From: a virus | DNA length: 64,000 nt | Strand: one strand, 5' to 3' | IMG/VR virus record: IMGVR_UViG_3300032236_000195 | Coordinates: 1-64,000 of that record | Part shown: piece after piece, positions 14,610-40,698 of the stretch | Numbering within the stretch: the stretch's first letter is position 1 | Layout: each line of letters begins with the position of its first letter | Translations under genes and position numbers: made by a program | The notes under the pieces: generated by a model | The model's input: the letters and a program-made list of their open reading frames with translations, nothing else | Told to the model about the DNA's origin: nothing | The model's database searches: none

Positions 14610-14611
14610 AA

Positions 14612-15798: not shown

Positions 15799-15804
15799 GG
15801 TCTA

Positions 15805-15830
15805 GCCCCGGTGCGACCCACCGGGGTTTT
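15805..15830 (+). terminator. Rho-independent terminator
   Basis: Perfect 8-bp arms CCCCGGTG (15806-15813) and CACCGGGG (15819-15826), a five-base loop and TTTT. The next start codon is only 3 bp beyond, so that gene needs read-through or a promoter inside the preceding region. Confidence 0.85.
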
Positions 15831-15832
15831 AT

Positions 15833-20930: not shown

Positions 20931-22768
20931 CAGTAGATGCATTTTTCTCTCTTGATGCTGCTGCCGAAGCTGCCTCCGCTGCTTCTTTACCTGAAGCCGC
21001 CGCCGCTGCTCTAACTGCTGGCGAAATAGGTGCGGGCGCTGGCGCTGGAGCAGGACTTAGCGCTATTCCGGCTGGAATGACTCAAGCACAAGCAGCAGCT
21101 ATGGCACAAGGCGCTGCCGCAGGTGGAGAAGGCGCTGCTGCTGGAATAAATGCACTTCAACAAGGGGCTATAACTTCCCCCGTTCCAACACCAGCTATTA
21201 CTAGCATTAACCCAACGACGGGCGTCCCCACTTCGTTTAGTCCAACTTTTGACCCCACATCTGGCGTCGGCACGCCGCCTCCTCCACCAATGCCCGCCGC
21301 GCCTCCCCCCGAATTAAGTCCGCGCGGTATTCCTCCTGCTTCTCCCGGCATTACTTCCGCGCCTTCTCCTGACCCGTACGCTCTATCTAAACCCCCCGTT
21401 GCTAGTCCTTATCTATCTAATCTAGGTGACACATATAGTTTTACTAAACCTTCAGTTGGTTTAGCGGACCAGTATGCTGCTAACGCCGGTAGGGGAACTT
21501 TTTCGGGTATGGCTGAAGCAGCGGCAGCGCCAGCAGAACCCAAATCTGCGTTTATGAGTGGTCTAGATAAAGCGATGGATTGGGCCGACGCACATCCTAA
21601 AACTGCCCTTGCCGGTGCGTATCTTGGTGCAAAAGTTACTGGACTGCTAAATCCAAACTATAACAACTTCAACAGTGCTCCGTACTCTGGCCCGTTGAGC
21701 AAATACAAGCTGTCTGAAAACTATCAGCCGGGAGTCGCTAACCCATCTCAGTTCCGCTATACCCCTCGCTACGCCGAAGGCGGCATCATGCAGATGGCTG
21801 GAGGGGGTGTTACGGCCAGTGGAAACCTGACTTTGAACGTACCTATTGATATGGGTGGGGGTCAGAACGACACGCAATCGACCCCAAACTTTGCATTTGG
21901 CGACGGAAATTCAGGCGCAAACACCGGATTCTTCGGGCAAAACAGTACCCAGACCGGTCAACCGTCGAACCCACAAGGTTCAACTAACGCCCCACAACCC
22001 TCTCAACAGGATGGGATCATGGGGCAACAGGGCGGCACTCCTGACCTGATGCAGTCTTTGCAGCAACTTAAACCAGAAGCCCAAGCAAATAATACTAACC
22101 AACAATCTGGCTCACAGCCCAACTCAATTAATGTTGGTGATAAACCGGACGTTGGCGAAATGAAAACATTTGCTAGCGGCGGGTCTACGGGTAATTTGTC
22201 CAGCACTTTGGACTACTACACCAAAATGATGGAAGGCGACTCCACGCCAAGAATCCCAGCCCAGCATCCTGAAGGCGTTGGTATCTTTAACGACAACGAC
22301 CCAGATACTCGTAACCTAGATGCATACTCTGCGGCGCGGGTCCGTCAAGCCAAAGCTAACAAACGTGCGTACGTAACTCCCCCGCAATCCCCGACTCCTC
22401 CTTCGATTGGTCAACTAAATCTTGGGGCGGCTAAAGATACTACCCAGTACCAAGAAGCAGCAAAGGGCGGTATCATGGGCGTCAGCGATCTCGGTGGTTA
22501 TGCCGCTGGTGGGAACCCACGTTTGTTGAAAGGGCCGGGGGATGGGATGTCAGATAACATTCCGGCAACGATTAATGGACGCCAACCGGCTCGGTTAGCT
22601 GATGGGGAATTTGTGATTCCAGCAGATGTGGTCTCCCATCTTGGGAATGGCTCAACAGAAGCAGGGGCAAAAATCCTTCATCAGATGATGACTAAAGTAC
22701 GTCATGATCGTACTGGCAACCCCCACCAAGGTAAACAGATTAATCCCAATAAGTACATGCCACGATGA
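20918..22768 (+). CDS. Ala/Gly/Pro-rich internal virion protein candidate (616 aa)
   Basis: Residues 10-90 are Ala/Gly-rich, about 85-180 are Pro-rich, and the middle is Gln/Asn/Ser-rich. The C-terminus has a conserved phage motif (GPGDGMSDNIPATINGRQPA, then RLADGEFVIPADVVSHLGNG) that I have seen in large podovirus virion proteins. Two GG motifs (AEGGIMQMAGGG and AKGGIMGVSDLGG) also recur in the next large gene. No enzymatic residues. Probably an internal or tail-associated virion protein. It overlaps the cupin gene by 13 bp and has GAGG upstream. Confidence 0.6.
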   Translation: MPILAVDAFFSLDAAAEAASAASLPEAAAAALTAGEIGAGAGAGAGLSAIPAGMTQAQAAAMAQGAAAGGEGAAAGINALQQGAITSPVPTPAITSINPTTGVPTSFSPTFDPTSGVGTPPPPPMPAAPPPELSPRGIPPASPGITSAPSPDPYALSKPPVASPYLSNLGDTYSFTKPSVGLADQYAANAGRGTFSGMAEAAAAPAEPKSAFMSGLDKAMDWADAHPKTALAGAYLGAKVTGLLNPNYNNFNSAPYSGPLSKYKLSENYQPGVANPSQFRYTPRYAEGGIMQMAGGGVTASGNLTLNVPIDMGGGQNDTQSTPNFAFGDGNSGANTGFFGQNSTQTGQPSNPQGSTNAPQPSQQDGIMGQQGGTPDLMQSLQQLKPEAQANNTNQQSGSQPNSINVGDKPDVGEMKTFASGGSTGNLSSTLDYYTKMMEGDSTPRIPAQHPEGVGIFNDNDPDTRNLDAYSAARVRQAKANKRAYVTPPQSPTPPSIGQLNLGAAKDTTQYQEAAKGGIMGVSDLGGYAAGGNPRLLKGPGDGMSDNIPATINGRQPARLADGEFVIPADVVSHLGNGSTEAGAKILHQMMTKVRHDRTGNPHQGKQINPNKYMPR

Positions 22769-23196
22769 TTCAAGTCTCAATGGTCCCTAAAGAGTTAATT
22801 AATACTTGCTGGGGAACTGTTGGGCCATTTCTTGATCGGGCGGCAAAGTATACTTACGGCAGATACACTGTAGAAGATATCTACAACGCAATAGTAGATT
22901 ACGATCATGATCTATGGGTTGCGTTTGAAGGTGATGTAATCAAAGGCGCAGTAGTCACAAATTTTATGAATTACCCAAAACGAAAAGTTTTATCTATGAC
23001 TTTTTGTGGCGGCATTGAACTGAGTAAATGGAAAGATCCTATGCTGGACTTGCTACGTCAGTACGCTAAAGACATGGGATGTGATGGGATCGAAGCCACC
23101 GCTCGTCGCGGATGGGCTAAAATATTTCAAAACGACGGGCATAAAAGCCTATGGGCAACATTTGAACTGCCCCTCGAAGGAGTAAATCATGGGTAA
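22765..23196 (+). CDS. GNAT-fold-like protein (143 aa)
   Basis: ATGA overlap with the preceding gene. The pattern DLWVAFEGDVIKGAVVTNFM, then KRKVLSMTFCGG and ARRGWAKIFQNDGHKSLWATF, resembles a divergent GNAT acetyltransferase fold found in a conserved phage family located between internal virion proteins. The canonical acetyl-CoA P-loop (Q/RxxGxG/A) is not obvious, so catalytic activity is doubtful. A structural or chaperone role near the ejection proteins is equally possible. Confidence 0.55.
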   Translation: MIQVSMVPKELINTCWGTVGPFLDRAAKYTYGRYTVEDIYNAIVDYDHDLWVAFEGDVIKGAVVTNFMNYPKRKVLSMTFCGGIELSKWKDPMLDLLRQYAKDMGCDGIEATARRGWAKIFQNDGHKSLWATFELPLEGVNHG

Positions 23197-26100
23197 GGGT
23201 GGCGGTGGCGGCGGTCAAACTCAATCGACGGTAACAAATACCAACGTACCCGAATACGCCCGTCCGTATGTGGAGTCAATGCTTGGCGCGACTCAAAATC
23301 AATTATTCAATACTTCTACTGACGCCCAAGGCAACACAGTATTAGGGTCACCCAAACCCTATCAAGCGTACGGTGGTACGTACGATCAAAATGGGAATAT
23401 GACTTCTTATGATCCCAGCGCGGCAGTCGCTGGGTTCAGTCCGTTGCAGCAACAGGCTCAGCAAGGTATTGCTGGTTTGCAAATGCCCGGACAATTTGAT
23501 GCCGCTAGCCAGTATACCGCTGACGCAATGCAGCGCGCCGCGAATGCCGGATACAATTCCGGCCAATTTACGATGGGTCAAGCGCAAGCTCCCGATGTAA
23601 ATTACTATCAAATGAACCAGCCCCAAGATATTCAGGGGCAGAACGCGCAGGGTGCAAATCTAGGAAATGCTCCTACTGCTTATGCAGACCAAATGCAGGC
23701 GGCGCAGCTTGGTTACGCTCCTGATATGCAAGGGCAAATTGGCTACGCTTCGCAGTTGGGCGACGCCGCGCAGATGCAAGCAGAACAAGCTGGAATTACT
23801 CAGCTTGGGAACGCGCCTACCTATCAAGGCCAGCAACTTGGTTATACACCGCAGAATGTTGGATATGACCGTGTAACTGCACCGCAACTGCGTGATCTGC
23901 AAATGCAGGCGGCGGGCAACGTAGGGACTCAATCATTTACGCAGCCGGGAACAGCCGATGCGTATATGTCCTCCTTCATGCAGAAGGCAATTGATCCGCA
24001 AATCCGGGAAGCTCAACGCCAAGCAGATATTGCTTCGACCAAACGCTCAGCCCAAATGGGTCAATTAGGCGCGTTCGGTGGATCACGTGAAGCGCTTGAA
24101 AATGCTGAAGCGGCAAGGAATACGGAGCAACTTAAATCCGACATTGAAGCCAAAGGTCTTCAGTCTGCGTACCAATCTGCACAAAGCCAATTTAACACTG
24201 AGCAACAGAACGCGCTTAACGCGGCGTTGGCTAACCAACAAGTCCAGCAACAGACTGGTGTTCAGAATCTTAGTGCGCTGCTCCAGACTCAGGGTCTTGG
24301 CGCACAGACTGGACTAACTGCACAACAGTTGAACCAAGCTGCCGGTATGCAGACGGGGCAGTTCAACCAGCAACAGCAGTACAACACTGCATTACAGAAC
24401 GCGCAGCTTGCTCAGCAACAGCAATTAGCCAACCAATCATTGCAAGGGCAGTACGGTCTGACTCAAGGTCAGATGAATCAGGCTGTTAATTTGCAGAACG
24501 CCGCGCAGCGCCAAGCAGCCAACGCCGCCAACCAAGGTGCATTGAATCAGTACGGGTTGCAGCAAGGTTCGATGAACCAGCAGATGGCAATGGCTAACCT
24601 TGCCAATCAGCAACAAGCAGCAGTAAACAACCAAGCTTTGCAAGGTCAGTACGGACTTCAGCAGGGTCAATTTAATCAAGCTGCAAATGCTGCTAACCAA
24701 CAAGCCAACAATCAAATTGCGTTGGCTAACCAAGCCTTGCAAGGTCAGTACGGGCTGACTCAAGGTCAGTTGGGGCAAGCTAACGCTCAGTTCAACGCTC
24801 AGCAAAACCAAGCAGCCAATCTTGCTAACCAGCAGATGGCATACAACACTGGGTTGCAGAACCTCCAAGCCAACCTTGGAGTGCAGCAGCTTGGCGCTGG
24901 GCAGAACTTGCAGGCTCAGCTAGCAAACCAACAGGCGATGTTGGCTAACCAACAGGCTATCGAGCAGTCTAGGCAATTTGGTGCCAATTACGGTCAACAG
25001 ATGAACGCCCAGCAGCTTGCTGCGGCGCAACAACTTGGTGGGCTAGGACAACAACAGCTAGCCGCCCAACAGGGAATCTACGGACTCCAGAACCAAGTTG
25101 GTGGTCAACAACAGCAGATGCAGCAGCAGATTATTAATCAGGCTATGCAGGACTACTCCAACACTCAGCAGTATCCGCTGATGCAGTTGGGAACGATGTC
25201 GAACATGCTGCGTGGTCTGCCTATGCAAGCTGCGACCACCAATATGTATCAGGCCGCGCCTAATGCCATCACTCAGGGTATTGGTGCAGTTGGTGCGTAC
25301 GGTGCGCTGAGCAATGCATTTGGTTCGCCTACTGGTAAAAAAGAAGGTGGTGTAATCAAAGCCGCGCAAGGCGGCATCATGTCCTACGATGTGGGCGGTG
25401 AGATTGAGAGCACGCTCAGCAAAATGGATGTGGATGAACTCAAGAAGTACGCCAAAGAATCTAACAGCCCAACAATTAAACAAATGGCTGCGCGTCTAAT
25501 CCAAGAGAAGATGCCAGTTCCGGGTATGGCGCGAGGCGGTATCCTTGCGTTTGCCAAATCTACCGAAGAAAACAATCAAAGTTTAGTTGATGCTTCTAAG
25601 TCTTTAGGCACGGAGGCAGGAAAAGATTTAGGTACTTTCCCAGACCCTACTTCTGCACTACAGTTTTTTGGGGTTAGCCCAGAGAGCAGCCTAAGTAAAG
25701 GACTGAAGAGCTACGTTGAGAATAGAAACAAGAATTTCAACAACCTTGTAAATCAAGGTATTGTGCTTGAAGGAAAACCAACCGCTCCTCCTACGCCAAC
25801 CCCTGCCGCTGCTCAACCAGCCCCGGCCCCGGTAACTCAACCCGCTCCCGCCGCACCACCTGTTGCGCCCACCGCTTCGGCTCCTGCTGGTATCGCTCCA
25901 CCCGCTCCAGCCCCTGCGCCTGTTGCTCGTCCTCCCGCTGGTCCCGCCCCTGCTGGTATTGCTCAAGCCGCCGCCGCTACGCCTCCTGCCCCCCGTCCTA
26001 CTGCCGGTATTCCAGCGCCGTCGATGCCAGCAGAAGGGCAGGATATCGCTCTTATCAGAAGAGAAGCCGAAGCCGCTAACACCGCCGCTGGTAAATCTTT

Positions 26101-27052
26101 GGCTGATATTGCTAAAGAACGCATGGCTGCGGAAAAAGAACGGGGTATTGGGCCAAATACGGATATGGCTGAGTATCGTTCCAAGATTATGGCCGAGCGT
26201 GCCAACATGGACGATGAAGCCAAACGCCAAAAGAATCTTCGTCTTGCCGAGTTTTTTGCAAGCTGGGGTTCGACTCCCGGCGCTACGCTCGTGGCAGGTA
26301 TGACTGCGCTTAGAAAAACTATCCCAAGTATTATGGAAGATGAGAAGGAGCGGAAAAAAGCCCTTCGTGAAACAGACAAAATTATCTATGAGCTTGGCCA
26401 AGCTGAAAGACTTGAAAAGAAAGGCGACTTGGCTGCTGATCAAGAGATGAAAACTAAATTGGCTGATCGGGCTAGTAAACTAAATGCCACTCTTGCTGAA
26501 GCCGCAGGCAAACGCGAGGCAACTGCGGCGCATCTCGCTGGGCAAACATACGCCGCGCAGATGGGTGTTAAAGGCCATGAAATATCAGCCGGGGCTACTG
26601 TTACAGCGGCGAAACTATCAGCCGACGCCCATAGAGCTTCTATTGAGATGCAGAAGGAAACTAACGATATTGGTAAAGCACAAGCTGCTTGGCAAGCAGC
26701 CACAACAGCACGGGACGCTATTGAAAGAGATTACGGCAACAGAACTAAAGCGGACGACTATGTTGCAGCTAAGAATACTATAGCGCTCCAAAAAAATAAT
26801 AAAACGCCTGAAATACAAGCTTTGGTGACCAACGCTGAAAACCTAGTTAATAGTGTTGAAAATGGGTTTAAAACCCGCCGTGAAGCTATGGACAAAATTG
26901 TGCGAGCGGCTGAAACTAGAGTTGGGATGAATCCTACTGGCGCCACCATGTTAGGTACTGATATTCCAGCGGGACATAAGTTAGCTGGGTATACTCCAGA
27001 TCGTAAGCCTGTTTATCAGGATTCCAAAGGTAACAAATTTGTCGGCGGATAA
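23189..27052 (+). CDS. Gln/Ala-rich internal virion (ejection) protein candidate (1287 aa)
   Basis: ATG 23189 overlaps the previous gene by 8 bp. N-terminus: Gly stretch, then TNTNVPEYARPYVESMLGAT. Residues about 90-300 are Gln/Ala/Tyr repeats, and 337-654 contain a clear repeat with core ALQGQYGLTQGQ separated by Asn/Gln/Ala helices. About 715-790 holds AQGGIMSYDVGGE and ARGGILAFAK motifs, 861-948 is Pro/Ala-rich linker, and 950-1287 is charged helical coiled coil. No catalytic motif. Long helical Gln/Ala-rich proteins at this point in podovirus maps are typically ejected with the DNA, which is the inferred role. Confidence 0.6.
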   Translation: MGKGGGGGGQTQSTVTNTNVPEYARPYVESMLGATQNQLFNTSTDAQGNTVLGSPKPYQAYGGTYDQNGNMTSYDPSAAVAGFSPLQQQAQQGIAGLQMPGQFDAASQYTADAMQRAANAGYNSGQFTMGQAQAPDVNYYQMNQPQDIQGQNAQGANLGNAPTAYADQMQAAQLGYAPDMQGQIGYASQLGDAAQMQAEQAGITQLGNAPTYQGQQLGYTPQNVGYDRVTAPQLRDLQMQAAGNVGTQSFTQPGTADAYMSSFMQKAIDPQIREAQRQADIASTKRSAQMGQLGAFGGSREALENAEAARNTEQLKSDIEAKGLQSAYQSAQSQFNTEQQNALNAALANQQVQQQTGVQNLSALLQTQGLGAQTGLTAQQLNQAAGMQTGQFNQQQQYNTALQNAQLAQQQQLANQSLQGQYGLTQGQMNQAVNLQNAAQRQAANAANQGALNQYGLQQGSMNQQMAMANLANQQQAAVNNQALQGQYGLQQGQFNQAANAANQQANNQIALANQALQGQYGLTQGQLGQANAQFNAQQNQAANLANQQMAYNTGLQNLQANLGVQQLGAGQNLQAQLANQQAMLANQQAIEQSRQFGANYGQQMNAQQLAAAQQLGGLGQQQLAAQQGIYGLQNQVGGQQQQMQQQIINQAMQDYSNTQQYPLMQLGTMSNMLRGLPMQAATTNMYQAAPNAITQGIGAVGAYGALSNAFGSPTGKKEGGVIKAAQGGIMSYDVGGEIESTLSKMDVDELKKYAKESNSPTIKQMAARLIQEKMPVPGMARGGILAFAKSTEENNQSLVDASKSLGTEAGKDLGTFPDPTSALQFFGVSPESSLSKGLKSYVENRNKNFNNLVNQGIVLEGKPTAPPTPTPAAAQPAPAPVTQPAPAAPPVAPTASAPAGIAPPAPAPAPVARPPAGPAPAGIAQAAAATPPAPRPTAGIPAPSMPAEGQDIALIRREAEAANTAAGKSLADIAKERMAAEKERGIGPNTDMAEYRSKIMAERANMDDEAKRQKNLRLAEFFASWGSTPGATLVAGMTALRKTIPSIMEDEKERKKALRETDKIIYELGQAERLEKKGDLAADQEMKTKLADRASKLNATLAEAAGKREATAAHLAGQTYAAQMGVKGHEISAGATVTAAKLSADAHRASIEMQKETNDIGKAQAAWQAATTARDAIERDYGNRTKADDYVAAKNTIALQKNNKTPEIQALVTNAENLVNSVENGFKTRREAMDKIVRAAETRVGMNPTGATMLGTDIPAGHKLAGYTPDRKPVYQDSKGNKFVGG
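24380..24860 (+). repeat. Coding repeats with ALQGQYGL core
   Basis: Within the 1287-aa gene, four or five imperfect units of roughly 35-50 residues share [AS]LQGQYGL.QGQ followed by Asn/Gln/Ala-rich helix. The corresponding DNA repeats GGTCAGTACGG-like cores. Confidence 0.6.
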
Positions 27053-27055
27053 ATA

Positions 27056-30000
27056 ATGGCCCTTGTACCGTACACCGGCGAAATACTTAAAGAAAAACCA
27101 CTTAATCTTGTGCCTTATTCTGGTGAAGTTTTACCAGAACTGCCCGTTAAAAAAGTAGAGCCACCTGTTCCGGCTCCGGTCCCGGAGCAACAAGGACCGC
27201 GCGTTCTTTCGCCAGACGATAACTCTAGCGATTTCATGCGGGGTATCTCTAATTACCTTCCCCAACTGCAAGAGACTTTTGGTGGTGCTCAAGTCCTAGC
27301 AGGACGCCTTGCTCAGAAGGTTGGTGCTGAAGAGACCGGCAGTGATTTAATTAAGCGCGGTGTTGAGAACCTTCACAAAGCTGAATCAAAAACAGTAACG
27401 CGTAAGACTGACGAATTTACTGAAGCACTCAAGGAAGGGATTGTCCCCCTTATAACTGACTGGCTCCCATACCAGATCGGGTCTGGTGTGGCTAACTTAG
27501 CCGAAACACTCGGCATGATGGCGGTTGGGGCGGGCGTTGGTGCGGCTACTGGTGCAGGTGTTGGGGCGCTCCCCGGCGCTATCTCTGGTGCGATTGCCAA
27601 AACTTTGGTCAAAAAAGGCGTCCTTGAAGCCGTCGAAAAAATGTCCAAAGAAGAGGCTGAAAAACATATTCTTAAAGAAGCCAAAAAAGAACTTCTTGCT
27701 TTAGGCACTACCGCTGGTACGGTGGGTCAAGCTGGTCTACATGGCGCTGGCGAAACTACAAGTCGGGCGGTGCAGGAAGCACAACGCAACAATCAAACCC
27801 CCGAAGACATCAACCTTGGACGCCTTGTCCCTGCGGCTATCGTTCACTCTGTTGCAGACTTCTTCGTCAACAAGATCGGGGTCAATGCGCTCAAAGTCGG
27901 TGAAAAAGCTGCTGATTCATTAATTGCTGAAGTTGCTAAACGTATTGCCGTCACGGGCGGCAAAGAGATTCTTCCTGAAGAAATCCAGACCATAGCAGAG
28001 CGCTTTGGTGCGAACCTGTCTGTTACTGATGCGGAAGCACTGAAAGAGTACGTCAATACTGCCGCTGCTTCGGTCGGTATGTCGGTCCTTCCCGGTACAG
28101 TTGGTGGGGTCAGGAACCACTTCAGTAATCAGTTTGCCAAAGCAGCCAAAGAACAAGCTGAAAGGGAAGAGGCCGAAAAACAAAAGCAACAGCAAACTCC
28201 CCCGCCTGCTACGCCTCCGGCTGTCACTACACCTGCAACGCCAGCCGACGTTGAACTTAATAGCCTAACGAACCTCCAAAACGCACCGCCGCCACCTCCA
28301 CCGGGCGCTGTTGCAACTACGCCGGGAACCCCACCGGGAACCCCACCTGCGGGAACCCCGCCGACTACCAGTCTGCCGCCCGCAGAAAACAAAGCGCAGG
28401 TATCGGCGTTTAATTATTTGCAGAGTTTGGCAGACCCAACCAAACAAGCTAGTGCGGGAATTTTAGGATCACACCTAAATAAATTAGGTATCCAGATGGA
28501 TCGTAGTGCTCCTAATTTTAGGGCCAACGCATTACAAGCTATTGCCGACAATTTGACGGCAAGTGGGGTTTCTGTACCTGACCTTGCACCAATTATTGCT
28601 AATCTACCACCATCGAAAAAAGCTGAGGCTGCGGCTCAAGCCGGGACTACGCCCCCTGCTGGTACTCCAGCAACAAAGGTGGAGTTTCCTAAATATAAAG
28701 ACATAGCTGCTGACCCTGTTGGTGTAGCTACTAAATATCTTGCCGACGTTGCCGCTGGAGTTTATCCAAAAGGTGCAAACTATCTTACGTTAAAACAAAT
28801 TGTTGCCAATATAGGTGTAGCTGTTCCAGAAGGGAAAGGCTATAACGCGCGTGCAATAGAGGCGATCAAACAGCATCTCTCAAATTACACGCCTCCCGAA
28901 AACAACTTGGCTCAACGGCAAGCGGAAGCTGTTGCTCAACAAGAATCTCTTTTTAAGAAATTAATTGACGAAAATATTGCCAAACAAACCGCTCAACAAG
29001 GAGCGCCCAATGCCACTACAGGAATTGACACGACCGCAGTTGGAACAAGCCCTAGCGTGGCTACACAGCCCGATACAGGACCCGCCACCGAAGGAACTGC
29101 CGCCGTTGACACAAGCGGAGTGGGCGATGTTGCACCAAGCACTACACCAATTAATGTTGGAGAAGGAACTAAACCCAATTCAGTAGGTGCTTTAACGGTC
29201 TCACTAGATGCAAATCTGCAAGATTTAAGTCAAGCAGATCGAGACATGGTGATTAAGCAAAGGCAAATACTTAATGACGCGGAAATTGCGTACATAAATA
29301 ATCCTTCAAGAGTAACTAAAGGTAGAGCTGAAGATGCGCTACTTGATCTACATCAGCTTGAAGATGATTTTGAAATAGCGCGTAGCGAACCTACGAAGCA
29401 AAGTAATGAACTGCTTGCGGAACCAATCGGACCATTTCGGTCTAGGCAAGAACAACGCGACACGGCAAATGATTACGCTCTAAGTCTTGAGCGGGAAGAA
29501 ACTCGTAAACAAGAAGAGCAACGTCAGCGTGATTTAGAAGCTTCGTATGTAAACGAAAAGGGCGAACCAAAAGGCCCTATGAAGTATTCGTTTGATACTG
29601 ATGAAATGGAAAATCAGTACAACCAGACTCACGCTGAGATTGCGGAAGAAGCAAAAGCAAAAAATGCTGAACGTGTTGAGCTATCACTAGCCCAAGAAGA
29701 AGCACAAACAAAATTTAATGCAGCGCAAGAGAAAGTGCAGCAAATTGAAGCTGACTTAAAAGCAGCCCGCGAACAAAACGACGAAAGTCGTGTACAAGAA
29801 TTAGAGAAGGAACAAGAGAAAGCAGACAACGAAGAGACCGATGCTTCTGCCGCTCTTGCCGAAGCAGAGGTAGCACTAGAGCGCCACGGTCCTAGGTTGT
29901 CTCAGTTGCCACCTTGGTCAAAGCTTTCCCCCGCTGATAAAGATTTATATTTTTCGCTGATTAAATACGGTGACCGGCCAGAACATAGGGAAGCTGGTAA

Positions 30001-33000
30001 AAAGTTGCAAGCCTATCGCGCTCTAACGCACGGGCGCGGCGAAGGATATATCAAAGCCAAAACTGAACAAGAACGCAAAGAACAGCAAGCCCGCAAAGAG
30101 CGCGACCAGCGCCGCGAAAGGATTACCAACAACTACGAATACAACCGGGAAGCGGTTGAGGCGCACTTTAAGTTCAAATTTCCATTGTGGAATAAACTGA
30201 CGACCGCCCAAAAGTTAGCGTACCTAAACGCTTTGAAAGAGAAAGGAGATACAAACGAAGCCGGTGTGCAGCAGGACTACGCATTTGCCAGACTTGCAGA
30301 GCGTTTGATCCATGACAATAAATCGCTTACTGAAGAGCAGCAAAAGAAAGCAGAAGCTGATATAAATAAACGCGAACTTGAAATGATTCGTGCGGGCGTC
30401 GCTGCCCAAGAAAAGTTTCAACGCCAGCGAGATACGGCAGAACCGTACGTACCATTTTCTCGGGTTGTTGAAGATAGGCCACTCACCGCCGAAGCGGTCA
30501 AGCTGGTAAAAGATAACGAACTGCAAAAGCTTTTGCAGGCTTTTAGGTCAGCACCAACGGGCGGGAACCTCACTGCGTTAGTCCACAAAGGGCTGGCTCA
30601 AGCTTTGTTTGCGATGAAACTCAGCACCACGTTTGAGATCGTAGACGTAATCAGGGATAACAAAGGTAGAGAAACAGACGCGTACGGTTCGTATGATCCG
30701 CTTACCAATAAGATTAGGTTGGCACCGAATGGACTAACGATGTCCACAATTCTGCATGAACTTACTCATGCGGCGACCGTACAGGTGCTCTACAAGTATT
30801 CGCATGGTAACCAGCTACGTTCCCAGTTGTCTGAGGATCAGATCCTTGCTTGCTTTCAGCTTGAGCAGCTTATGGAAGAAGCTAAAGACTACCTTGGTAA
30901 AACTTACCCAACAGCGTTCAAGAACGTCTATGAGTTCATAGCCTATGCTATGACGGAGCCTCAATTCCAGCGGGAACTGAACAGAATCAGTCCGTCTGCT
31001 ATGGGAGCAATGAAGGCGTCGAACATTGTTGCTAGCGCCATTCATGACAAACTTGGCAAAGAACCCGGAAAAGTAGTTGGCAAATGGAGAGAGTGGACTG
31101 AAACTCTCTTGTATGAAAGTTTGTTGCCTACCGCTAGAACCCTTTGGACAAGTCTTAGTAGGGCAATTGCCAAAGCAGTTGGGTACAACGCTGAAAAACA
31201 AGCGAACGGCCAGATCAATTTTCTCGTGGAGATTTCTGAGATCTTCTCGAAGATTGCTATGCCACAAGAGGGTGCAATCGATCTAGGGAGGTTGGAAGCC
31301 AACGCTCCCGCTGGGCGGCAGACAAAGCCAGCGACGCCCACACGCGTCATCGACCTAAACAATCACGATGACGATAATTACACACGGTTCAAGGAAAAGA
31401 AAGTACCGCTGTTTACGGCAATCAAAAACGTAGTTACCACAAAACAGGGTTTCACAACGCTCGCCACCAAGTTTGCCAACAACCGTTACGCAGCCAAGGT
31501 ATGGGAAAAAGCACGCGAGCGCGCTGGCTTGATTAACTTTGACGGCCCGATGATCAACGCGGTCTACACTTTGCTGACACTTGCGCCAGCGCGTGGTCGG
31601 GCTATCTATAACAGTGAAGTTGATCCGATTGCTAGTGAACTTCGTACGACAATAGAGCAATACGCCAAGGCTATGAACCTTGACGTGGACAAAACGCTTG
31701 CCCGTCTACACAAAATCTTGGAGGTACTGCACAACCCCGAGCGTAGCATGGTGAAGTTCTTGTTGTCGGCTCCGCTTGATGACAAAAAAAAGCTGTTTAT
31801 GGTAAGTGGTAAACCATCTTCGGCGGCTGATGTACGTACAGCCATACTAAATCAACTCAATAGAAGCCAGAACATGACGCAGGCGCAAGCCCTTCAGTTA
31901 CGTTCTACGTTAGAAAGTATTGTGTTCCAGACTCAGGTGGACCCGTCTGGTCAAGTCACGATCATGCGTGACGCGAACGGCAACCCGCTCGTCAATACAA
32001 ACAACGTGGTGGCTACCGGATTTAGTCCAGATAACATCAAAGAAATAGATCCTTCCCACCAGACTTTCAACATGACCAACCTTGATCCAGCCAGCATCAA
32101 GAACGTCATGGCTCAATATCTCAGTGATCCCAACAAGGCGTTGGTAGACAAAATCATAAGTGATATGCGGCGGCTCAATGAGAAAACTATTGAGCTAGAT
32201 AAACAGTCTAACTACTGGTCAAAGCCGGTCGATAACCGGAAGAACTTCTACAACTTCCAGAACTACGTTTCGTTCAAAGGTAAGGGAGCGCATACTCAGA
32301 CTGATGAGATGCTGAACTTTGAGACCATGAAGAGTAATGGTAAAGAGTTCCAGCAAATCGAACGCCCAATGTCGGGCCGGGAAACTGCTGCTGATAATCC
32401 TGTACTCCACGCAATGGCCTACGCTACACAAGCTGCGCTGCGTGCGGGGCGTAAGGATGTGACTCTTGCCATCAAAAATGCTATCGAGCAAAAACTTATT
32501 AGTGGAAAAGTATCCAAGAAAAGATCGTTTGAAGAGCGTGATGATCCCAAGTTTATTGAGAGCCTTCCTAAAGAGCGGACCCTCTTTCACTTCAATGAAG
32601 ACGGTAGCCTCCAAGTTCTTGAGATCAACGACAACGCACTGCGAGAATCGATCCGGCGTACGTTTGAATCTACAAGCCCACTTATCAATGCGGCTAACTG
32701 GCTGACCAGCAAAGTCGGGGCAACGCACACTCGGTACAATTTTAACTTTGCGCCGATGAACTTCACACGTGATGCGTTGACTAACGCTGGTGCGATTGGT
32801 GCGGATATGGGGCCAGCAAAAGCTGCCCAATATTTGGGCGCAATGTCTAGTCTTGTCACTAACGGCGGTTTGTACAAGGCGATGCAGGTTGCTGTTCTGT
32901 ACGACAAGTCAGATGCTAGAAGTCAACAAGCCCTCAAAGGTTTGGCGGCGTCAGACCCGTTCATTGCAAACATGGTTGAGTTCATCAAAGAGGGCGGCAT

Positions 33001-34528
33001 GGTGTCGTACCTCCACGGACTGACCATCAAATCAAACTTTGAGCAACTCTACAAAGAAGTTGGTCGGTCAGGCATCCTCACGAAAGTAGAACAGCTAGAG
33101 AAATTCATTGATGTTTGGACGGACATGTTTGAATTGGCAAGCCGTTCTGCCGCATACAGTGTGGCTAAAGCTGACGCATATGCTAATAACATAACAGGTG
33201 ATGCGGCAAAAACAAAAGCTGCTGCCTACGCCAAAAACCTAGCCAACTTTGAGCAGGTCGGCGATTGGGGTAAAGCCCTAGGCTCCCTTTACATGTTCTT
33301 CCGTCCGTCTGCTACGGGCGCGCTGCGTGCCATCGAGTCTATTGCTCCGGCATTCCGTACGGCAGATCGCGCTTGGGAAAGTTTAAAAGCAGAACTGCCA
33401 GAAAATTTAAGGAAAGATCCTGCTACTAGGGATAAGTTCTTAGCCAACTACAGTCAGAACCGTAAGAACGCACAGATAATGACCGCCGGTTTGATGGGTC
33501 TTGGTGCGTTGACCTACACGATGGCGTTCATGTTTGCCGATGATGACGATGACTTGGGACGCAACCCGGTCGGTACGGACAACATGCAGCAGTGGACTCG
33601 CTATGCGCGGTTCCATGTCCCAAAAGTTCTCAGCGAAGCGATTGGACTGAAAGACCCGTTGGTGCTTCAGATGCCGTGGGGCTTCGGGCTTGGTGCATTT
33701 GCTGCATCAGGGGCGCAATTGGCAGCGGCGGTAGCTGGCAAACAATCAATCGGCGATGCGTTGGCTAACGTCTTCCTTCAGATTTCGTTGGACTCGTTTG
33801 TGCCGATCCCGATCTCGCGTATGCCAGCCACGGAGATGCCACTTGAGTTCGTTCTGGATTCCGTTGCGCCTAGCGTAGTACGTCCACTGCTTGAGTTTGC
33901 TCTCAATAAAAATGGTCTTGGCCAAGAGATCTACAACGACCAGAACCGTCGCATGGGTGATGCCTACACGGGTGGCGATCACATCCCAGAGATCTACAAA
34001 GAAGCCGCTAGATGGGTAGCCAACAATACGGTTGGCGATATCGACATCAGTCCCAACACCCTGTACTTCTTGTCCAATAGTTACTTAGACGGAATCGCTA
34101 AGTACCTTGAAGTTGGGAACGACGTTGCGCTTGTTGTTGGTGGCAAAAAAGACTTCAAGCCAAAGACTGATCTGCCGTTGTTTAGTTCGTTCTTTGGGTC
34201 ACGCTCAAACGTGGACTCCCGTGAATTCTCTGCGGTTGAGAAGAAGATTCAAGATATCGAGAAACAGATAAAACAGTTCGATACTGACCCGCTAATGGCG
34301 ATGAAGTACGATATTAATCATCCAATGCACCGCACTCTGGTAGACATGTACAACCATGACAAGAACCAAGAGTTGCGGGATTTGCGGCATCAAGCCAAGG
34401 AAGTTCGACTCAATACTGCTCTAGAACCAAGAGATCGTGATGCGATAGTCAGGATCATCAACTTCCAAGAGAATTTAATTAAGCACAATTTGGTTGAGAT
34501 TTATAAAGCTTACGGGGTAAAACCCTAA
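27056..34528 (+). CDS. Giant multidomain virion protein with HExxH motif (2490 aa)
   Basis: ATG 27056 lies 3 bp after the previous stop. Visible regions: short repeats VPYTGEIL / VPYSGEVL at the N-terminus; a Gly/Ala hydrophobic segment (about 148-185); Pro/Thr-rich linker (about 378-445); charged coiled coil (about 850-950). A zincin-like ILHELTHAATVQVL motif follows, with H1234, E1235 and H1238. A long helical C-terminal region from about 1880 to 2350 (RYNFNFAPMNFTRDALTNAG ... GSLYMFFRPSATGALRAIES) resembles the LPD38 domain of large polyvalent proteins. It is probably packaged and injected, with a protease-like part acting on entry. The third zinc ligand was not identified. Confidence 0.65.
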   Translation: MALVPYTGEILKEKPLNLVPYSGEVLPELPVKKVEPPVPAPVPEQQGPRVLSPDDNSSDFMRGISNYLPQLQETFGGAQVLAGRLAQKVGAEETGSDLIKRGVENLHKAESKTVTRKTDEFTEALKEGIVPLITDWLPYQIGSGVANLAETLGMMAVGAGVGAATGAGVGALPGAISGAIAKTLVKKGVLEAVEKMSKEEAEKHILKEAKKELLALGTTAGTVGQAGLHGAGETTSRAVQEAQRNNQTPEDINLGRLVPAAIVHSVADFFVNKIGVNALKVGEKAADSLIAEVAKRIAVTGGKEILPEEIQTIAERFGANLSVTDAEALKEYVNTAAASVGMSVLPGTVGGVRNHFSNQFAKAAKEQAEREEAEKQKQQQTPPPATPPAVTTPATPADVELNSLTNLQNAPPPPPPGAVATTPGTPPGTPPAGTPPTTSLPPAENKAQVSAFNYLQSLADPTKQASAGILGSHLNKLGIQMDRSAPNFRANALQAIADNLTASGVSVPDLAPIIANLPPSKKAEAAAQAGTTPPAGTPATKVEFPKYKDIAADPVGVATKYLADVAAGVYPKGANYLTLKQIVANIGVAVPEGKGYNARAIEAIKQHLSNYTPPENNLAQRQAEAVAQQESLFKKLIDENIAKQTAQQGAPNATTGIDTTAVGTSPSVATQPDTGPATEGTAAVDTSGVGDVAPSTTPINVGEGTKPNSVGALTVSLDANLQDLSQADRDMVIKQRQILNDAEIAYINNPSRVTKGRAEDALLDLHQLEDDFEIARSEPTKQSNELLAEPIGPFRSRQEQRDTANDYALSLEREETRKQEEQRQRDLEASYVNEKGEPKGPMKYSFDTDEMENQYNQTHAEIAEEAKAKNAERVELSLAQEEAQTKFNAAQEKVQQIEADLKAAREQNDESRVQELEKEQEKADNEETDASAALAEAEVALERHGPRLSQLPPWSKLSPADKDLYFSLIKYGDRPEHREAGKKLQAYRALTHGRGEGYIKAKTEQERKEQQARKERDQRRERITNNYEYNREAVEAHFKFKFPLWNKLTTAQKLAYLNALKEKGDTNEAGVQQDYAFARLAERLIHDNKSLTEEQQKKAEADINKRELEMIRAGVAAQEKFQRQRDTAEPYVPFSRVVEDRPLTAEAVKLVKDNELQKLLQAFRSAPTGGNLTALVHKGLAQALFAMKLSTTFEIVDVIRDNKGRETDAYGSYDPLTNKIRLAPNGLTMSTILHELTHAATVQVLYKYSHGNQLRSQLSEDQILACFQLEQLMEEAKDYLGKTYPTAFKNVYEFIAYAMTEPQFQRELNRISPSAMGAMKASNIVASAIHDKLGKEPGKVVGKWREWTETLLYESLLPTARTLWTSLSRAIAKAVGYNAEKQANGQINFLVEISEIFSKIAMPQEGAIDLGRLEANAPAGRQTKPATPTRVIDLNNHDDDNYTRFKEKKVPLFTAIKNVVTTKQGFTTLATKFANNRYAAKVWEKARERAGLINFDGPMINAVYTLLTLAPARGRAIYNSEVDPIASELRTTIEQYAKAMNLDVDKTLARLHKILEVLHNPERSMVKFLLSAPLDDKKKLFMVSGKPSSAADVRTAILNQLNRSQNMTQAQALQLRSTLESIVFQTQVDPSGQVTIMRDANGNPLVNTNNVVATGFSPDNIKEIDPSHQTFNMTNLDPASIKNVMAQYLSDPNKALVDKIISDMRRLNEKTIELDKQSNYWSKPVDNRKNFYNFQNYVSFKGKGAHTQTDEMLNFETMKSNGKEFQQIERPMSGRETAADNPVLHAMAYATQAALRAGRKDVTLAIKNAIEQKLISGKVSKKRSFEERDDPKFIESLPKERTLFHFNEDGSLQVLEINDNALRESIRRTFESTSPLINAANWLTSKVGATHTRYNFNFAPMNFTRDALTNAGAIGADMGPAKAAQYLGAMSSLVTNGGLYKAMQVAVLYDKSDARSQQALKGLAASDPFIANMVEFIKEGGMVSYLHGLTIKSNFEQLYKEVGRSGILTKVEQLEKFIDVWTDMFELASRSAAYSVAKADAYANNITGDAAKTKAAAYAKNLANFEQVGDWGKALGSLYMFFRPSATGALRAIESIAPAFRTADRAWESLKAELPENLRKDPATRDKFLANYSQNRKNAQIMTAGLMGLGALTYTMAFMFADDDDDLGRNPVGTDNMQQWTRYARFHVPKVLSEAIGLKDPLVLQMPWGFGLGAFAASGAQLAAAVAGKQSIGDALANVFLQISLDSFVPIPISRMPATEMPLEFVLDSVAPSVVRPLLEFALNKNGLGQEIYNDQNRRMGDAYTGGDHIPEIYKEAARWVANNTVGDIDISPNTLYFLSNSYLDGIAKYLEVGNDVALVVGGKKDFKPKTDLPLFSSFFGSRSNVDSREFSAVEKKIQDIEKQIKQFDTDPLMAMKYDINHPMHRTLVDMYNHDKNQELRDLRHQAKEVRLNTALEPRDRDAIVRIINFQENLIKHNLVEIYKAYGVKP

Positions 34529-34731
34529 CCTGTGCGCCAAGCACGGACACCTAAGTGTCCGTCTTTGCTTGATGGGTAAACCTTAAACCGCATACCTTCT
34601 TTTTTGGATGCGGTCTCAATAGCGTATATCATTTGCGATACACGCAGGGTGGGGATAAAGAAACTATCCCCAACCCTCATTCCCATGAACGGGAAAATCC
34701 ACTCAGGTTCCTTGATCAGATCCGGCGTCAA
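34525..34731 (-). CDS. Conserved small phage protein (68 aa)
   Basis: TTG start at 34731 with AGGAA just upstream, overlapping the primase-helicase end by 29 bp; an internal ATG is possible. The core GMRVGDSFFIPTLRVSQMIY, then KVYPSSKDGHLGVRAWRTG, matches a small conserved phage family of unknown function that may be a compact DNA-interacting fold. It is the last gene of the minus-strand module, and its stop codon overlaps that of the giant plus-strand gene. Confidence 0.65.
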   Translation of the reverse strand: MTPDLIKEPEWIFPFMGMRVGDSFFIPTLRVSQMIYAIETASKKEGMRFKVYPSSKDGHLGVRAWRTG

Positions 34732-37537
34732 ACCATTCCTCCGGGATTTGGGTCTTGAACCAATACAGGTGAGTTGGGTCTACGCTGATTGAACTTTTCC
34801 AGCCCGTAGTCAGGCGACCCTTCTTGTCATCTACCAGAATGTTCTGTGCCTTCATCTCAAACTCAAACTCGCGCGAACTTATCTGACGCTCGTTGAGATA
34901 CTTTTTGAAGTCAGTCTTGGAGACCTGCAAGAGACTCTGCTCGCTGACTATGCGCGCTACGATAGCGCCTCGTGGCTCCATCGTGACCTTACCGTCCTTG
35001 ATGACCAGAATGTTCGCCATGTTCTTGTTGATGTAATCGCCAATCACAGACGGGTAGTCAGTGCGGTTGATCTTGACCACGTTGTCACGGATCTCAATCA
35101 TCGACCGAATGACTATGTGGTAGATACGGTCCAGATCTAGTTTAAAAATGTTTGCATTGTTGCCAATCGTACCGGCGGTAAAAACTGCCGCCACAAGATT
35201 TTGATAGAAGCGATATGTTGAACTGTCGCCAAAATCCTTGATAAACCGTGCGTTCCATTTGCCGATCTCTTCAATGATCCATGCGTCGCCTAACTTAAAA
35301 AGTTCTTTGATGAACATCGGACCAGCGTGTCCGTAGTTGTAGGTGAACGTATCAAAGATCTTTGCACCCAATGCGCCACCACCCTCACCTTCAAGTACGT
35401 CAGGTTTGTGGACTAGGAACTCAATCAGGCGTGCTGCTTCTCCATCAGGGTTAGCTTTAAATTGCTCGAACTTGCTGTAGATCGATTGGTTTGTTGTGAA
35501 GATAGCAATCAATGACGCCGACATCTCATGCTCGCGTTCAGCGTTAACCGAACTCTGCATCCTGATCTTGGCCTTACCGTGAGAGATCTTATGCACCAAC
35601 TGCGACATTGGTTTGGCTTCACGGTTCGATACCTCGTCCAATCCAAACGGTAGGTTCTTCAACCCAAGGTAGCGTCCGGTCAGCCCGTTCTCGGTGGCAT
35701 CGAACACGGATAGCTCCTTGGGGTTCCCAAAAGGACTCAAAGCCGCGTACAAAGCACCGGTCTTACCACACCCCGACTTACCTAAAAGGGACATTACGAC
35801 GCCGGAAGTTGACGTATATGGCATCAAAACTGTACCAAAACCAGCCATTCCAGCAAAGGCATGTAGCTCAAATTGAGGTCGGTTCAACTCGTCAAACGAA
35901 CTGCGCCAACGCTCGTACGTGCCTTGCGGCTTGAGATATTTAGCGATGCCTTTGACGAATGGTGATGAAGGTGCGTCCAAAGTTTCTCCGTTGAAGTTAA
36001 TCTCTTTGTTGCCGATGACGAAGCTGCGCGTTGACCAATTTTCGCCTGTGATTTCTTCTGTCCATCCCATCTGCATACGCATGGTCTCCGCCACCGTATT
36101 TGTCTGCATGTATTGACCCCACTTCACAACGTAGTCCATTAAAAGTTTGGTGTTGGGCGATGAGGCAAGTACGCCGTTGTACGCCATCATTGCTTTGAAA
36201 GTCTCCTGCGCGTAGACATGCTTTAGCGGCAAGAGGAACTCCCGCATCGAATCCCGTGGAAGCACCAATCTCATGAGCAGACACTCTCCATCGTGAGGAC
36301 TCATCATCCTTCGGACGGGGAAAAACTCGTGAGGTAGGATCAGGATTGGATCGTTCTGGTGCTTGATGCCCTTCTTGTCTATGGTGGGTGCTGGCAGAAA
36401 GTAAATCCCCCCGTTATGCCCGCGCACAAACGGCATCAGGAATTCAGGGAAATCTGGAATCGTTTTGGTATCCGGTTGCGTCCAAACTGATTCCTCCGTA
36501 TCAGACGGCGGGGCAACTCTGAGTTCTCGTCCGAGGAGGATGGGGCTTGCAATTTTGCCTCTGTGCTGACACCCATTACATCCGTCAGAGTAGTTACTGA
36601 TGAACCACTCGCATTTCCGAGGGGCAGGAATAGGTTCAACTTTTTGTATTGTTTTATGGTAGTCATACTCCGGGTGATCTTCTGACATTAGGTGGACAGC
36701 AGTCGCGCCATCCTCACAAAACTTGGCTATGGATAGGCCAGCGAACCACAGTGGCTCCTCTATGGTGGCGGCGTTCACCAGAATATTTTTTATCTGATTG
36801 CAGCCCGTACCCTCAATACTTTCTGCCGCTATCTTTTCAAAACTTTTCGTGAAGTTATCCAACTTCAGCATCTGAAGAGTATCGTCATCCAGACCTTTCG
36901 ACGCTACTTCAAGGACGGATGCTTCGCTCTTTAGTGGTTCCTCACCAAAGAACTCTTTGAACTCCTGCCAACTGTAGATTGGGAACTCGTCACTAATAAA
37001 TAGCGTAGGTCGTGGCGGGTTATATTTATAGTTAAAGGTCTCCGGTGCTCGCATCAACCGGGAGGCATCTGCCGTGACCACGGGGTCAATCACTATGTGC
37101 ATCAAACAGAGTGATCTAAATCTCTCTGCGAATACTTTCCATTCATCAACCGGAATGTCTTGATCCATCAACCAATAGGCATGAAGCCCACCGCCTGAGT
37201 CAACAACGATTGGATCGGGTAAACCCGTAGCGCCTATAAGTTTGAAGAGCGCTACGTGCGCGTCGCCTTTTTCTGCATACGCTTTGTTGTCGCCTACGTC
37301 GAGATCAATAAAGAATGACTTAACGTATAAACAATCAGCAGCCTTTCTGCTGTATCCGTCAAAAGAACCTAGGGCTACAGAGACATTTAGATCTTTACTC
37401 TTGAACTTCTCAATTTCTTCCAAAACACCGTCGAGTGTCTCTGCATATCGGTTCTTGATGTTGTTGTGTAGATCAAAACCACTGACACAGTAGACACCCT
37501 GCGTGGGCAATGCTTTCTCGTAGAATTGTTTTAACAT
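34703..37537 (-). CDS. Primase-polymerase / DUF927-like helicase fusion (944 aa)
   Basis: Two parts. Residues about 60-200 look like an archaeo-eukaryotic-type primase: FFIDLD with D78 and D80, SGGGLHAYW with H119, then VIDPVVTADASRLMRAPETF. A Cys cluster near residues 305-325 (CEWFISNYSDGCNGCQHRG) may bind zinc. Residues about 580-720 form a DUF927-type helicase ATPase with Walker A LGKSGCGKTG (K592) and LPFGLDEVSNREAK. It would synthesise primers and unwind DNA at the replication fork. A minus-strand terminator lies just upstream, so it may need read-through or its own promoter. Confidence 0.75.
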   Translation of the reverse strand: MLKQFYEKALPTQGVYCVSGFDLHNNIKNRYAETLDGVLEEIEKFKSKDLNVSVALGSFDGYSRKAADCLYVKSFFIDLDVGDNKAYAEKGDAHVALFKLIGATGLPDPIVVDSGGGLHAYWLMDQDIPVDEWKVFAERFRSLCLMHIVIDPVVTADASRLMRAPETFNYKYNPPRPTLFISDEFPIYSWQEFKEFFGEEPLKSEASVLEVASKGLDDDTLQMLKLDNFTKSFEKIAAESIEGTGCNQIKNILVNAATIEEPLWFAGLSIAKFCEDGATAVHLMSEDHPEYDYHKTIQKVEPIPAPRKCEWFISNYSDGCNGCQHRGKIASPILLGRELRVAPPSDTEESVWTQPDTKTIPDFPEFLMPFVRGHNGGIYFLPAPTIDKKGIKHQNDPILILPHEFFPVRRMMSPHDGECLLMRLVLPRDSMREFLLPLKHVYAQETFKAMMAYNGVLASSPNTKLLMDYVVKWGQYMQTNTVAETMRMQMGWTEEITGENWSTRSFVIGNKEINFNGETLDAPSSPFVKGIAKYLKPQGTYERWRSSFDELNRPQFELHAFAGMAGFGTVLMPYTSTSGVVMSLLGKSGCGKTGALYAALSPFGNPKELSVFDATENGLTGRYLGLKNLPFGLDEVSNREAKPMSQLVHKISHGKAKIRMQSSVNAEREHEMSASLIAIFTTNQSIYSKFEQFKANPDGEAARLIEFLVHKPDVLEGEGGGALGAKIFDTFTYNYGHAGPMFIKELFKLGDAWIIEEIGKWNARFIKDFGDSSTYRFYQNLVAAVFTAGTIGNNANIFKLDLDRIYHIVIRSMIEIRDNVVKINRTDYPSVIGDYINKNMANILVIKDGKVTMEPRGAIVARIVSEQSLLQVSKTDFKKYLNERQISSREFEFEMKAQNILVDDKKGRLTTGWKSSISVDPTHLYWFKTQIPEEWFDAGSDQGT

Positions 37538-37551
37538 GTCTCGCAGAGTTG

Positions 37552-37576
37552 AAAAAAGCGAGGTCTCCCTCGCTTT
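37552..37576 (-). terminator. Rho-independent terminator on minus strand
   Basis: Perfect 8-bp arms (37555-37562 and 37569-37576) with a six-base loop, followed on the minus strand by a T6 run. It sits between the HTH gene and the primase-helicase gene and is preceded by a second G/C hairpin at 37585-37602. Confidence 0.8.
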
Positions 37577-37605
37577 GTTAGAACAACGGGGGTCGCCCCC
37601 CGTGG

Positions 37606-37929
37606 CTATTTGTTTCCGTTGAGTTCTCTCCCTACTATTCTTTCGAGGTAAAGTTTTGCCTCTGCGACGCTCCTAGCCGGGAGAATCTCTTTGGCGGTGT
37701 CACTCTCAATGATGTCCGTCAGCGTTTCAATCTTCAAGATATTTTTCTCTCGGATTTGGTTCCCGTTAAACCAATTGAAGATCGTCATACGGCTTACGTC
37801 AAGAGCATCGGCCACATACTTAGCTGGCAAGTTAGCCTTGACGCAAGCCATAGCCAAAGCCACCCCCGGCTTATGGGGGTTGGCCTTGAACAGCTTAATC
37901 AAAAAGGGTTCGCTGTACGTTCTGGACAT
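37606..37929 (-). CDS. Helix-turn-helix DNA-binding protein (107 aa)
   Basis: TAATG overlap with the upstream gene. Residues about 22-60 form a helix-turn-helix: VALAMACVKANLPAKYVADA, then LDVSRMTIFNWFNGNQIREK, where SRMTIFNWFNG looks like the recognition helix. The rest is helical. It could regulate the phage early operon or act in replication initiation. Its position directly before a terminator and the primase-helicase gene suggests control of that boundary, but the target is unknown. Confidence 0.7.
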   Translation of the reverse strand: MSRTYSEPFLIKLFKANPHKPGVALAMACVKANLPAKYVADALDVSRMTIFNWFNGNQIREKNILKIETLTDIIESDTAKEILPARSVAEAKLYLERIVGRELNGNK

Positions 37930-38750
37930 TACTTCTTAGACCATTTCTTGACCACATCTGAGATGTCCTTCTCAGGGACTTCAGCAGCTTTGGCAACCGG
38001 ACGTTTTTGAGGCTCAACAACCTCGTTCTCGTCGGTCTGGAACACGTTCATTTTAATCGCAGCTTCAGCCGCCGCGCTCTTGGACTGCCGCGCAATGATC
38101 TCAAGGTCAGCCTCGGGTACTGCACCAGCGGGTGAGAACAACACCTTCGGCGTTGGCGATTTAGTATCAAACGCCATCTTGGTCACAACGCGCCCTGCGG
38201 ACACATTGTGCGACGCCAAGTGCTGAACATACGGACGGAACGGGAACCGACCATTGTCTTCTTTCCCGAAGGTAGAAGTTGCTGGCAGAACAAGTTGCAT
38301 CACATCCCCAGATGGATCGTTAGGCAACACTACTGCGGTACGCCACGACAAACGGCAAGCGCTACCCAGACCGCCTTGTCCCGATCCTTTGACCGACATC
38401 TCGCATTCACTGCATTTAGACGCTTTCGGGGTCTTCACTTCGGGATCAGGCGCGCTGGAGTCAGCAGACCAGCACGTGGGGCTAATCTTCTGCCCTTCTT
38501 GATAGCCCGACTCGTAGTACATACGCGAGGCTTGGTGCGCCATCTTCACGAAGATCACGTTCATGTGGCGATCTTCAATCGCACCGATCTCTTTGCCGCC
38601 AGACATCAAACGGAATACACCGCCTTTGATGGACACACGTTTGCTACGTGCAGCACCACCGCCACCTGCTACTGCAAGAGTATCTTCATCCAGACCGGTC
38701 TGGACAAGTGCGGGGTTGCTAGCGAGAAGAGTTACTAAATCGTTTGCCAT
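37929..38750 (-). CDS. Putative ssDNA-binding replication protein with Cys4 motif (273 aa)
   Basis: ATG 38750. The N-terminal part (RVSIKGGVFRLMSGGKEIGA) and middle (MYYESGYQEGQKISPTCWSA) are typical of a conserved phage replication-module protein that I associate with ssDNA binding. Four cysteines (C93, C113, C116, C132) could bind zinc around KCSECEMSVKGSGQ. The acidic/Lys C-terminal tail ends DISDVVKKWSKK rather than the acidic tip of typical SSBs. Placement between recombination/helicase genes and primase supports the role; activity is inferred. Confidence 0.55.
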   Translation of the reverse strand: MANDLVTLLASNPALVQTGLDEDTLAVAGGGGAARSKRVSIKGGVFRLMSGGKEIGAIEDRHMNVIFVKMAHQASRMYYESGYQEGQKISPTCWSADSSAPDPEVKTPKASKCSECEMSVKGSGQGGLGSACRLSWRTAVVLPNDPSGDVMQLVLPATSTFGKEDNGRFPFRPYVQHLASHNVSAGRVVTKMAFDTKSPTPKVLFSPAGAVPEADLEIIARQSKSAAAEAAIKMNVFQTDENEVVEPQKRPVAKAAEVPEKDISDVVKKWSKK

Positions 38751-40537: not shown

Positions 40538-40698
40538 ACTAGATCTCACTGAATGACTGTAGGTGACCCCTTACGGGGGTCAGTCGGTCAAGCCCGACAT
40601 GCCGAGGAGGAGGACATCATGAAGACACCGCTTGACTGATGCGGTTAACTCGGGGAACCAAAACCCCCGGCGAAGCACACTCACACCTAACTGCTTCG

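Follow-up and report, generated by a model that had tools for sequence, protein, structure and literature searches.

A zincin within an exchangeable cassette of a giant LPD38 phage protein

Since 2017, it has been asked whether the zincins of polyvalent or ejected phage proteins process the proteins that carry them or attack proteins of the host. A single gene raises this question in the window studied here, a 64,000-base stretch of a 64,646-base viral record, where an earlier note had read a 2490-residue product as a virion protein combining a HELTH motif, a coiled coil, and an "LPD38-like" C-terminal region, and had judged a metallopeptidase inside an ejected protein to be unusual. Is the motif part of a genuine zincin, how does that domain vary among related phages, and what might it do?

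A polyvalent protein at the end of the late operon

The open reading frame begins with ATG, comprises 2490 codons plus a stop, and has no internal stops (Table 1). It closes a late operon that holds virion structural and tail genes; terminase and portal lie at 57118-61230, and replication genes lie on the opposite strand from 34703, just past it. Two features by which Iyer et al. 2017 (PMC5512222) characterise phage-type polyvalent proteins are present: large size with two or more unrelated domains that include an LPD or a zincin MPTase (here both, LPD38 and the zincin), and a gene that lies with those for virion structure. The C-terminal region proved to be simply LPD38 rather than something resembling it, with a match that scores 61 bits where the cut-off is 27, and this is the sole Pfam family matched by the giant protein. 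The coiled coil is weakly supported: a simple heptad test yields a candidate, but other windows score equally high. The full protein had no match when its sequence was searched against PHROGs and the PDB, and a full-protein tblastn search of cultured phages gave none either, whereas the C-terminal part alone does match there. In public records, the giant LPD38 proteins L165, L166, and L168 are called "putative portal", "N-6 adenine-specific DNA methylase", or "coil containing protein".

Table 1. Features of the giant gene and its upstream neighbours (positions in the window; residues of the 2490-residue protein)
Feature	Position	Strand	Basis
Giant polyvalent protein of 2490 aa, probably ejected; closes the late/virion operon	27056..34528	+	ORF, Pfam, gene order
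Pair of genes immediately upstream (products of 143 aa and 1287 aa), candidates for ejection partners	22765..27052	+	Position only; compare N4 gp52 and gp51 before gp50
N-terminal scaffold, residues 41-385	27176..28210	+	82-94% identity to L001/L002, dN/dS 0.05-0.10
Hydrophobic Gly/Ala segment, residues 154-172, inside N-terminal scaffold		+	Hydrophobic 19-mer
Pro/Ala-rich low-complexity linker, residues 386-711, variable length	28211..29188	+	Composition; gaps and low identity among relatives
Exchangeable cassette, residues 712-1421 (helical/coiled-coil part and zincin)	29189..31318	+	No blastn match against L002; 23-45% aa identity; dS saturated
Candidate coiled coil, residues 869-924	29660..29827	+	Heptad score z 2.1 against shuffles; weak
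Zincin domain, residues 1140-1330	30473..31045	+	AlphaFold2 model, pLDDT mostly >90 over core; homology to N4 vRNAP C1
HELTH, residues 1234-1238: two predicted zinc ligands and catalytic Glu	30755..30769	+	Invariant in zincin alignment A3
Glu1293, predicted third zinc ligand, YEF motif in NVYEFIAYAMT	30932..30934	+	Invariant in A3; EF in 69/69
C-terminal module, conserved and largely helical, residues 1422-2490	31319..34525	+	Alignment A4; moderately confident model, pLDDT 73
Possible membrane helix, residues 2141-2159, then DDDDD	33476..33532	+	Hydropathy
LPD38 domain (PF18857), residues 2175-2369	33578..34162	+	Pfam E 1.6e-16

Several other genes were also noted. In the relative L001, the upstream neighbour of the giant gene (5718-9890) encodes a Gln-rich protein of 1390 aa with many near-repeats of 'ANQALQGQYGLQQG', and its counterpart in the window lies at 23189-27052. 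Directly after the giant gene, and convergent with it, a 944-aa protein (34703-37537, minus strand) has DUF927/primase-helicase similarity, and a SNF2-type helicase follows at 39155-40549 (minus strand). The late structural operon includes an Endonuclease VII-like gene, an endolysin, and a GTA-type holin with three TM segments (15833-17363, plus strand). A 694-aa protein of the structural region (12056-14140, plus strand) has three stretches of fibronectin type III repeats (PF00041) and ends in a glycine-rich domain (PF21722). Finally, at 47491-48798 and 48899-50011 (both minus strand), a protein of the DUF2201 putative metallopeptidase and VWA-like kind (PF13203, PF09967) adjoins an ATPase (phrog_1297), the two forming a phage-borne pair of the ATPase/VWA type.

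A zincin homologous to domain C1 of the N4 virion RNA polymerase

A scan of viral contigs recovered the relatives L001 (80% overall) and L002 (67%), together with, via its zincin region, the 3672-aa protein of L003. Scanning with a zincin alignment yielded 80 loci, with ORFs mostly of about 2000-3700 aa, about 58 of which have the entire C-terminal part of ~1040 aa; a second scan with the alignment of the C-terminal module (A4; 27 sequences, mean column identity 47%), blind to the zincin, also yielded 80 loci, and a scan of genome contigs added a single relative, from an alphaproteobacterial MAG. In the L003 protein (4916-15934), zincin and LPD38 are separated by a large additional region, around 'WCTGSS...GDFYIYYKNGNPSVAVRMNG'.

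HELTH, at residues 1234-1238 where the earlier note had placed it, is the sole HExxH in the giant protein. The pattern used in the zincin scan includes HExxH, so its conservation there is partly built in; the C-terminal scan is free of that bias. Among proteins recruited by the C-terminus alone and long enough to judge, all 69 distinct sequences have an HExxH upstream of the C-terminal module, and all 69 have a Glu-Phe motif 50-69 residues past it, a distance that a long insert raises to 112 in two of them. In the zincin variants L090 and L098, a long charged insert separates the HExxH helix from the Glu helix and places the third ligand ~112 residues away. Only six columns of the zincin alignment A3 (46 relatives, mean column identity 22%) are invariant, namely H1234, E1235, H1238, A1239, E1293, and F1294, and this supplies, in Glu1293, the third zinc ligand that the earlier note had sought, unchanged across the 46 aligned relatives.

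The AlphaFold2 model of residues 1104-1403 (46 sequences) has a mean pLDDT of 81.5, with the core mostly >90, and orders that core as a helix, three strands, the HExxH helix, and the Glu helix, the same core that Iyer et al. 2017 (PMC5512222) described for polyvalent MPTases. Two defining traits of an MPTase, HExxH with a Glu in the next conserved helix and the core fold, are present, in the alignment and in the model, respectively; the earlier note had offered the lack of a zincin fold around residue 1234 as grounds for abandoning its reading, and the model instead contains that fold. Plain Foldseek of the zincin model against the PDB returned noise from the helical tail, and the matter was settled by a VIA second look and by profile comparison. 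Specifically, the top VIA-align match was the N4 vRNAP gp50 (9pnr/9pnt), residues 2124-2366, with Z 9.2 over 185 residues at 3.9 A, below which known zincin peptidases appeared at Z ~5, mixed with unrelated rows. This region falls in domain C1 of the N4 vRNAP (residues 2124-2375), which carries a conserved HExxH (PMC12633501). Further, hhalign of A3 gave E 1.3e-8 against N4 alone and 98.3%, E 1.4e-14, against nine N4-like vRNAPs, and the zincin of Vibrio phage 1.205.O matches PHROG 2206 (E 1.2e-15, positions 2042-2246), which is annotated "virion RNA polymerase".

The zincin, with HExxH and Glu1293 as third ligand, is therefore a genuine domain, homologous to N4 vRNAP C1. A motif of five residues can arise by accident in a long protein, but with an expected count of 0.037 from composition, and given the residue invariance, the fold, and the homology to N4 C1, a chance origin of HELTH is scarcely credible. 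The wider reading of the locus as a zincin in a polyvalent virion protein is very likely correct. What did not stand in the earlier note was the rarity that it saw in this arrangement: the zincin-like MPTase is the commonest domain among polyvalent proteins, about 36% of which carry one to five (Iyer et al. 2017, PMC5512222), and the N4 vRNAP carries a homologous domain. In the literature searched, we found no report of peptidase activity or of a substrate for any member of this zincin family.

Wholesale exchange of the cassette between phages

Comparison with L002 revealed that the giant protein is not conserved evenly along its length. Amino acid identity is 82-85% over residues 41-385 and 81-90% over 1456-2490, but just 23-45% over 731-1455, where synonymous change is saturated; at the DNA level (blastn), 27176-28359, 28991-29187, and 31319-38000 align at 79-84%, while 29188-31318 has no match. 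The zincin of L001, in contrast, is 93-94% identical to that of the window, with a dN/dS of 0.03-0.05 that is among the protein's lowest. This pattern recurs in five groups of metagenomic phages including the window, within which scaffolds are about 74-97% identical and zincins 22-35%; some scaffolds that agree at 90-97% hold zincins of just 22-32% identity. Specifically, in the pairs L042/L045, L072/L089, L090/L091, and L105/L111, the N-terminal part is 80-94% and the C-terminal part 74-96% identical, against 22-32% for the zincin, and L029/L053, in which the 5' end of the L053 ORF is truncated, show the same pattern. The right edge of the divergent block coincides, in six pairs, with the start of the C-terminal module or falls no more than about 200 bases from it, after which similarity runs for kilobases downstream. 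Upstream and neighbouring genes stay unchanged when the zincin differs.

Across 98 proteins, zincin identity and C-terminal module identity are nearly unrelated (Spearman 0.05), whereas identities of the N- and C-terminal scaffolds go together (Pearson 0.86 over 27 proteins). Of the 26 scaffold groups with several members, 10 include two or more zincin types, and nine zincin types are found on several scaffold groups. Mapped on the tree of the C-terminal module, zincin types require 45 changes against a minimum of 36, which indicates additional exchanges, but this count is weaker evidence than the pairwise profiles because many types are singletons. In the window's close family, the slot is always filled by a zincin. 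Among cultured Vibrio phages, 1.205.O has a zincin while 252E42.2 and K249 have no HExxH, on flanks that are 94-97% identical: residues 940-1191 of 1.205.O, the zincin, give way to 183 unrelated residues in 252E42.2/D79, and in K249 the replacement spans a larger stretch. Neither replacement contains an HExxH or a recognised Pfam domain. An ADP-ribosyltransferase suspected by eye in the K249 cassette (L182, residues 961-1365, 'VYHGS...') received no Pfam or PHROG support and was dropped, and the split ORF of L019, which might have been taken for a natural separation of zincin and C-terminal module, was treated as a sequencing error, as several adjacent frames also break.

Our results thus demonstrate that a cassette of ~700 residues, comprising the candidate coiled coil and the zincin, is exchanged wholesale between phages. 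Assembly chimeras could be suspected, given that the members are mostly metagenomic contigs and that L019 shows frameshift-like breaks, but identical combinations of scaffold and zincin recur (in one scaffold group, five contigs carry one type and three another), the right junction falls at one position in independent pairs, and the exchange is seen in three cultured, separately sequenced Vibrio phages, all of which make this explanation very improbable. We found no paper describing such block exchange in the mostly open-access literature searched; Iyer et al. (PMC5512222) mention possible recombinational variability for the kinase cassettes of some polyvalent systems.

Possible roles of the zincin and comparison with known systems

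Judging from its position and its relatives, the giant protein is very probably incorporated into virions and ejected along with the DNA. The LPD38 protein gp69 of phage JC1 gave 51 unique peptides in CsCl-purified virions (PMC9144972), and knock-down of the LPD38 protein gp25 of PTXU04 strongly lowered plating (PMC11879866); gp25 was not reported from peptide fingerprinting of four PTXU04 bands. In the model we propose, the hydrophobic N-terminal part and the 1070-residue C-terminal LPD38 module would form a fixed carrier that holds the central cassette and may serve packaging, ejection, and envelope association. Within the cassette, H1234, H1238, and E1293 would bind zinc and E1235 would activate water, as in a Glu-zincin, and the enzyme might then cut a host protein early in infection, with block recombination renewing its sequence.

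This reading of the zincin as a host-directed protease, carried as cargo on a conserved carrier, has in our estimation about an even prospect of being right, and it is favoured on three grounds. The strict retention of catalytic residues, including Glu1235, together with free exchange of the remainder fits an active enzyme with renewed specificity; the constancy of upstream genes when the zincin changes speaks against a substrate in trans among neighbouring virion proteins; and the Vibrio isolates that lack a zincin argue against a general role in maturation. The main rival is self-processing, in which the zincin would cut its own polypeptide in cis, in the linker or the cassette, whether prior to packaging, inside the head, or once ejected, and so free parts of it. 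Iyer et al. (PMC5512222) proposed such a role for the MPTases of polyvalent proteins, P1 DdrB is processed ahead of packaging, and the zincin lies here between a low-complexity linker and the C-terminal module. The cassette has its own linker and coiled coil and includes possible cleavage sites, so that a protease with a cut site inside it would also be swapped as a block. Two further points weigh against the host-directed reading itself: a slot that always holds a zincin in the close family may be needed for something constant, and the N4 vRNAP is packaged full length without sign of degradation, so that its homologous domain may have another role. Against self-processing, the same N4 vRNAP is packaged uncut, and the zincin-less Vibrio phages, on ~96% identical scaffolds, are viable, so that maturation in that group proceeds without a zincin. 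On balance, we consider self-processing unlikely, if still a serious contender.

A further alternative is that the domain is no protease in practice and acts as a zinc-stabilised structural or regulatory domain, or as another metal enzyme, in encapsidation or in control of the rest of the protein. The C-terminal domain of the N4 vRNAP, including the homologous C1, lowers polymerase activity, and its authors note that HExxH also occurs outside proteases (PMC12633501); further, the MPTase-containing region is required for encapsidation of the N4 vRNAP (Iyer et al., PMC5512222). Yet in 69/69 proteins, despite the wide divergence of their zincins elsewhere, the catalytic Glu of HExxH is kept as strictly as the ligands although it takes no part in zinc binding, and we regard this alternative as improbable, more so than self-processing.

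Returning to the host-directed reading, it is possible, at somewhat less than even odds, that giant LPD38 ejection proteins in general are carriers with an interchangeable effector slot, which would hold zincins of dozens of types or unrelated domains, swapped by recombination at fixed junctions, as polymorphic toxins swap their toxin domains, and so tracking host targets, defence proteins for instance. Should the slot prove to hold effectors aimed at the host, these proteins would represent a reservoir of activities for the first minutes of infection. The natural swaps, chiefly those in the three cultured Vibrio phages (carriers ~96% identical, one with a zincin and two without), make the choice between self-processing and attack on the host directly testable.

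Known systems share parts of this arrangement. T7 gp16 stands apart, with an N-terminal lytic transglycosylase domain (SLT, E 1.7e-31) that finds no match in the window protein and no sequence support for homology to the C-terminal module. Burkholderia phage JC1 gp69 (DarB-like, 4515 aa) has an LPD38 C-terminal module (HMM 3695-4513) with an HExxH upstream at 3465 and is the last gene of its virion module, but it has additional transglycosylase-like, methylase/helicase, and LPD3 domains, and its HExxH region has no A3 profile match. Escherichia phage PTXU04 gp25 (2198 aa, putative polyvalent) is likewise a giant late gene product with LPD38 (E 1.6e-38) and a similar predicted C-terminal fold, but lacks HExxH. 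In Vibrio phage 1.205.O, NVP1205O_20 (3130 aa) matches both the zincin (A3, E 5e-34) and the C-terminal module (E 1.5e-45; LPD38 at 2820-3020), but differs in a methyltransferase-like region between the two and in sister phages that replace the zincin. By description (Iyer et al. 2017, PMC5512222), phage P1 DdrB is comparable in being polyvalent and virion-related and in having a zincin MPTase, but its proteolytic processing precedes packaging and its remaining domains differ. Finally, N4 gp50 (PDB 9pnr, 9pnt) matches four vRNAP Pfam models where the window protein, which has no RNA polymerase domain, matches none, and its C2 domain has no detectable sequence similarity to the C-terminal module (hhalign 0.2%), the VIA alignment of the two being collinear but weak (Z 4.7-4.8 over 168-197 aa). 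Nevertheless, N4 gp50 is a giant protein that has been shown to be packaged and ejected, as the window protein probably is; its gene closes the virion operon, preceded by those for one small and one mid-sized ejection protein; and it carries a homologous zincin with HExxH and Glu, followed by a large and mostly helical C-terminal domain.
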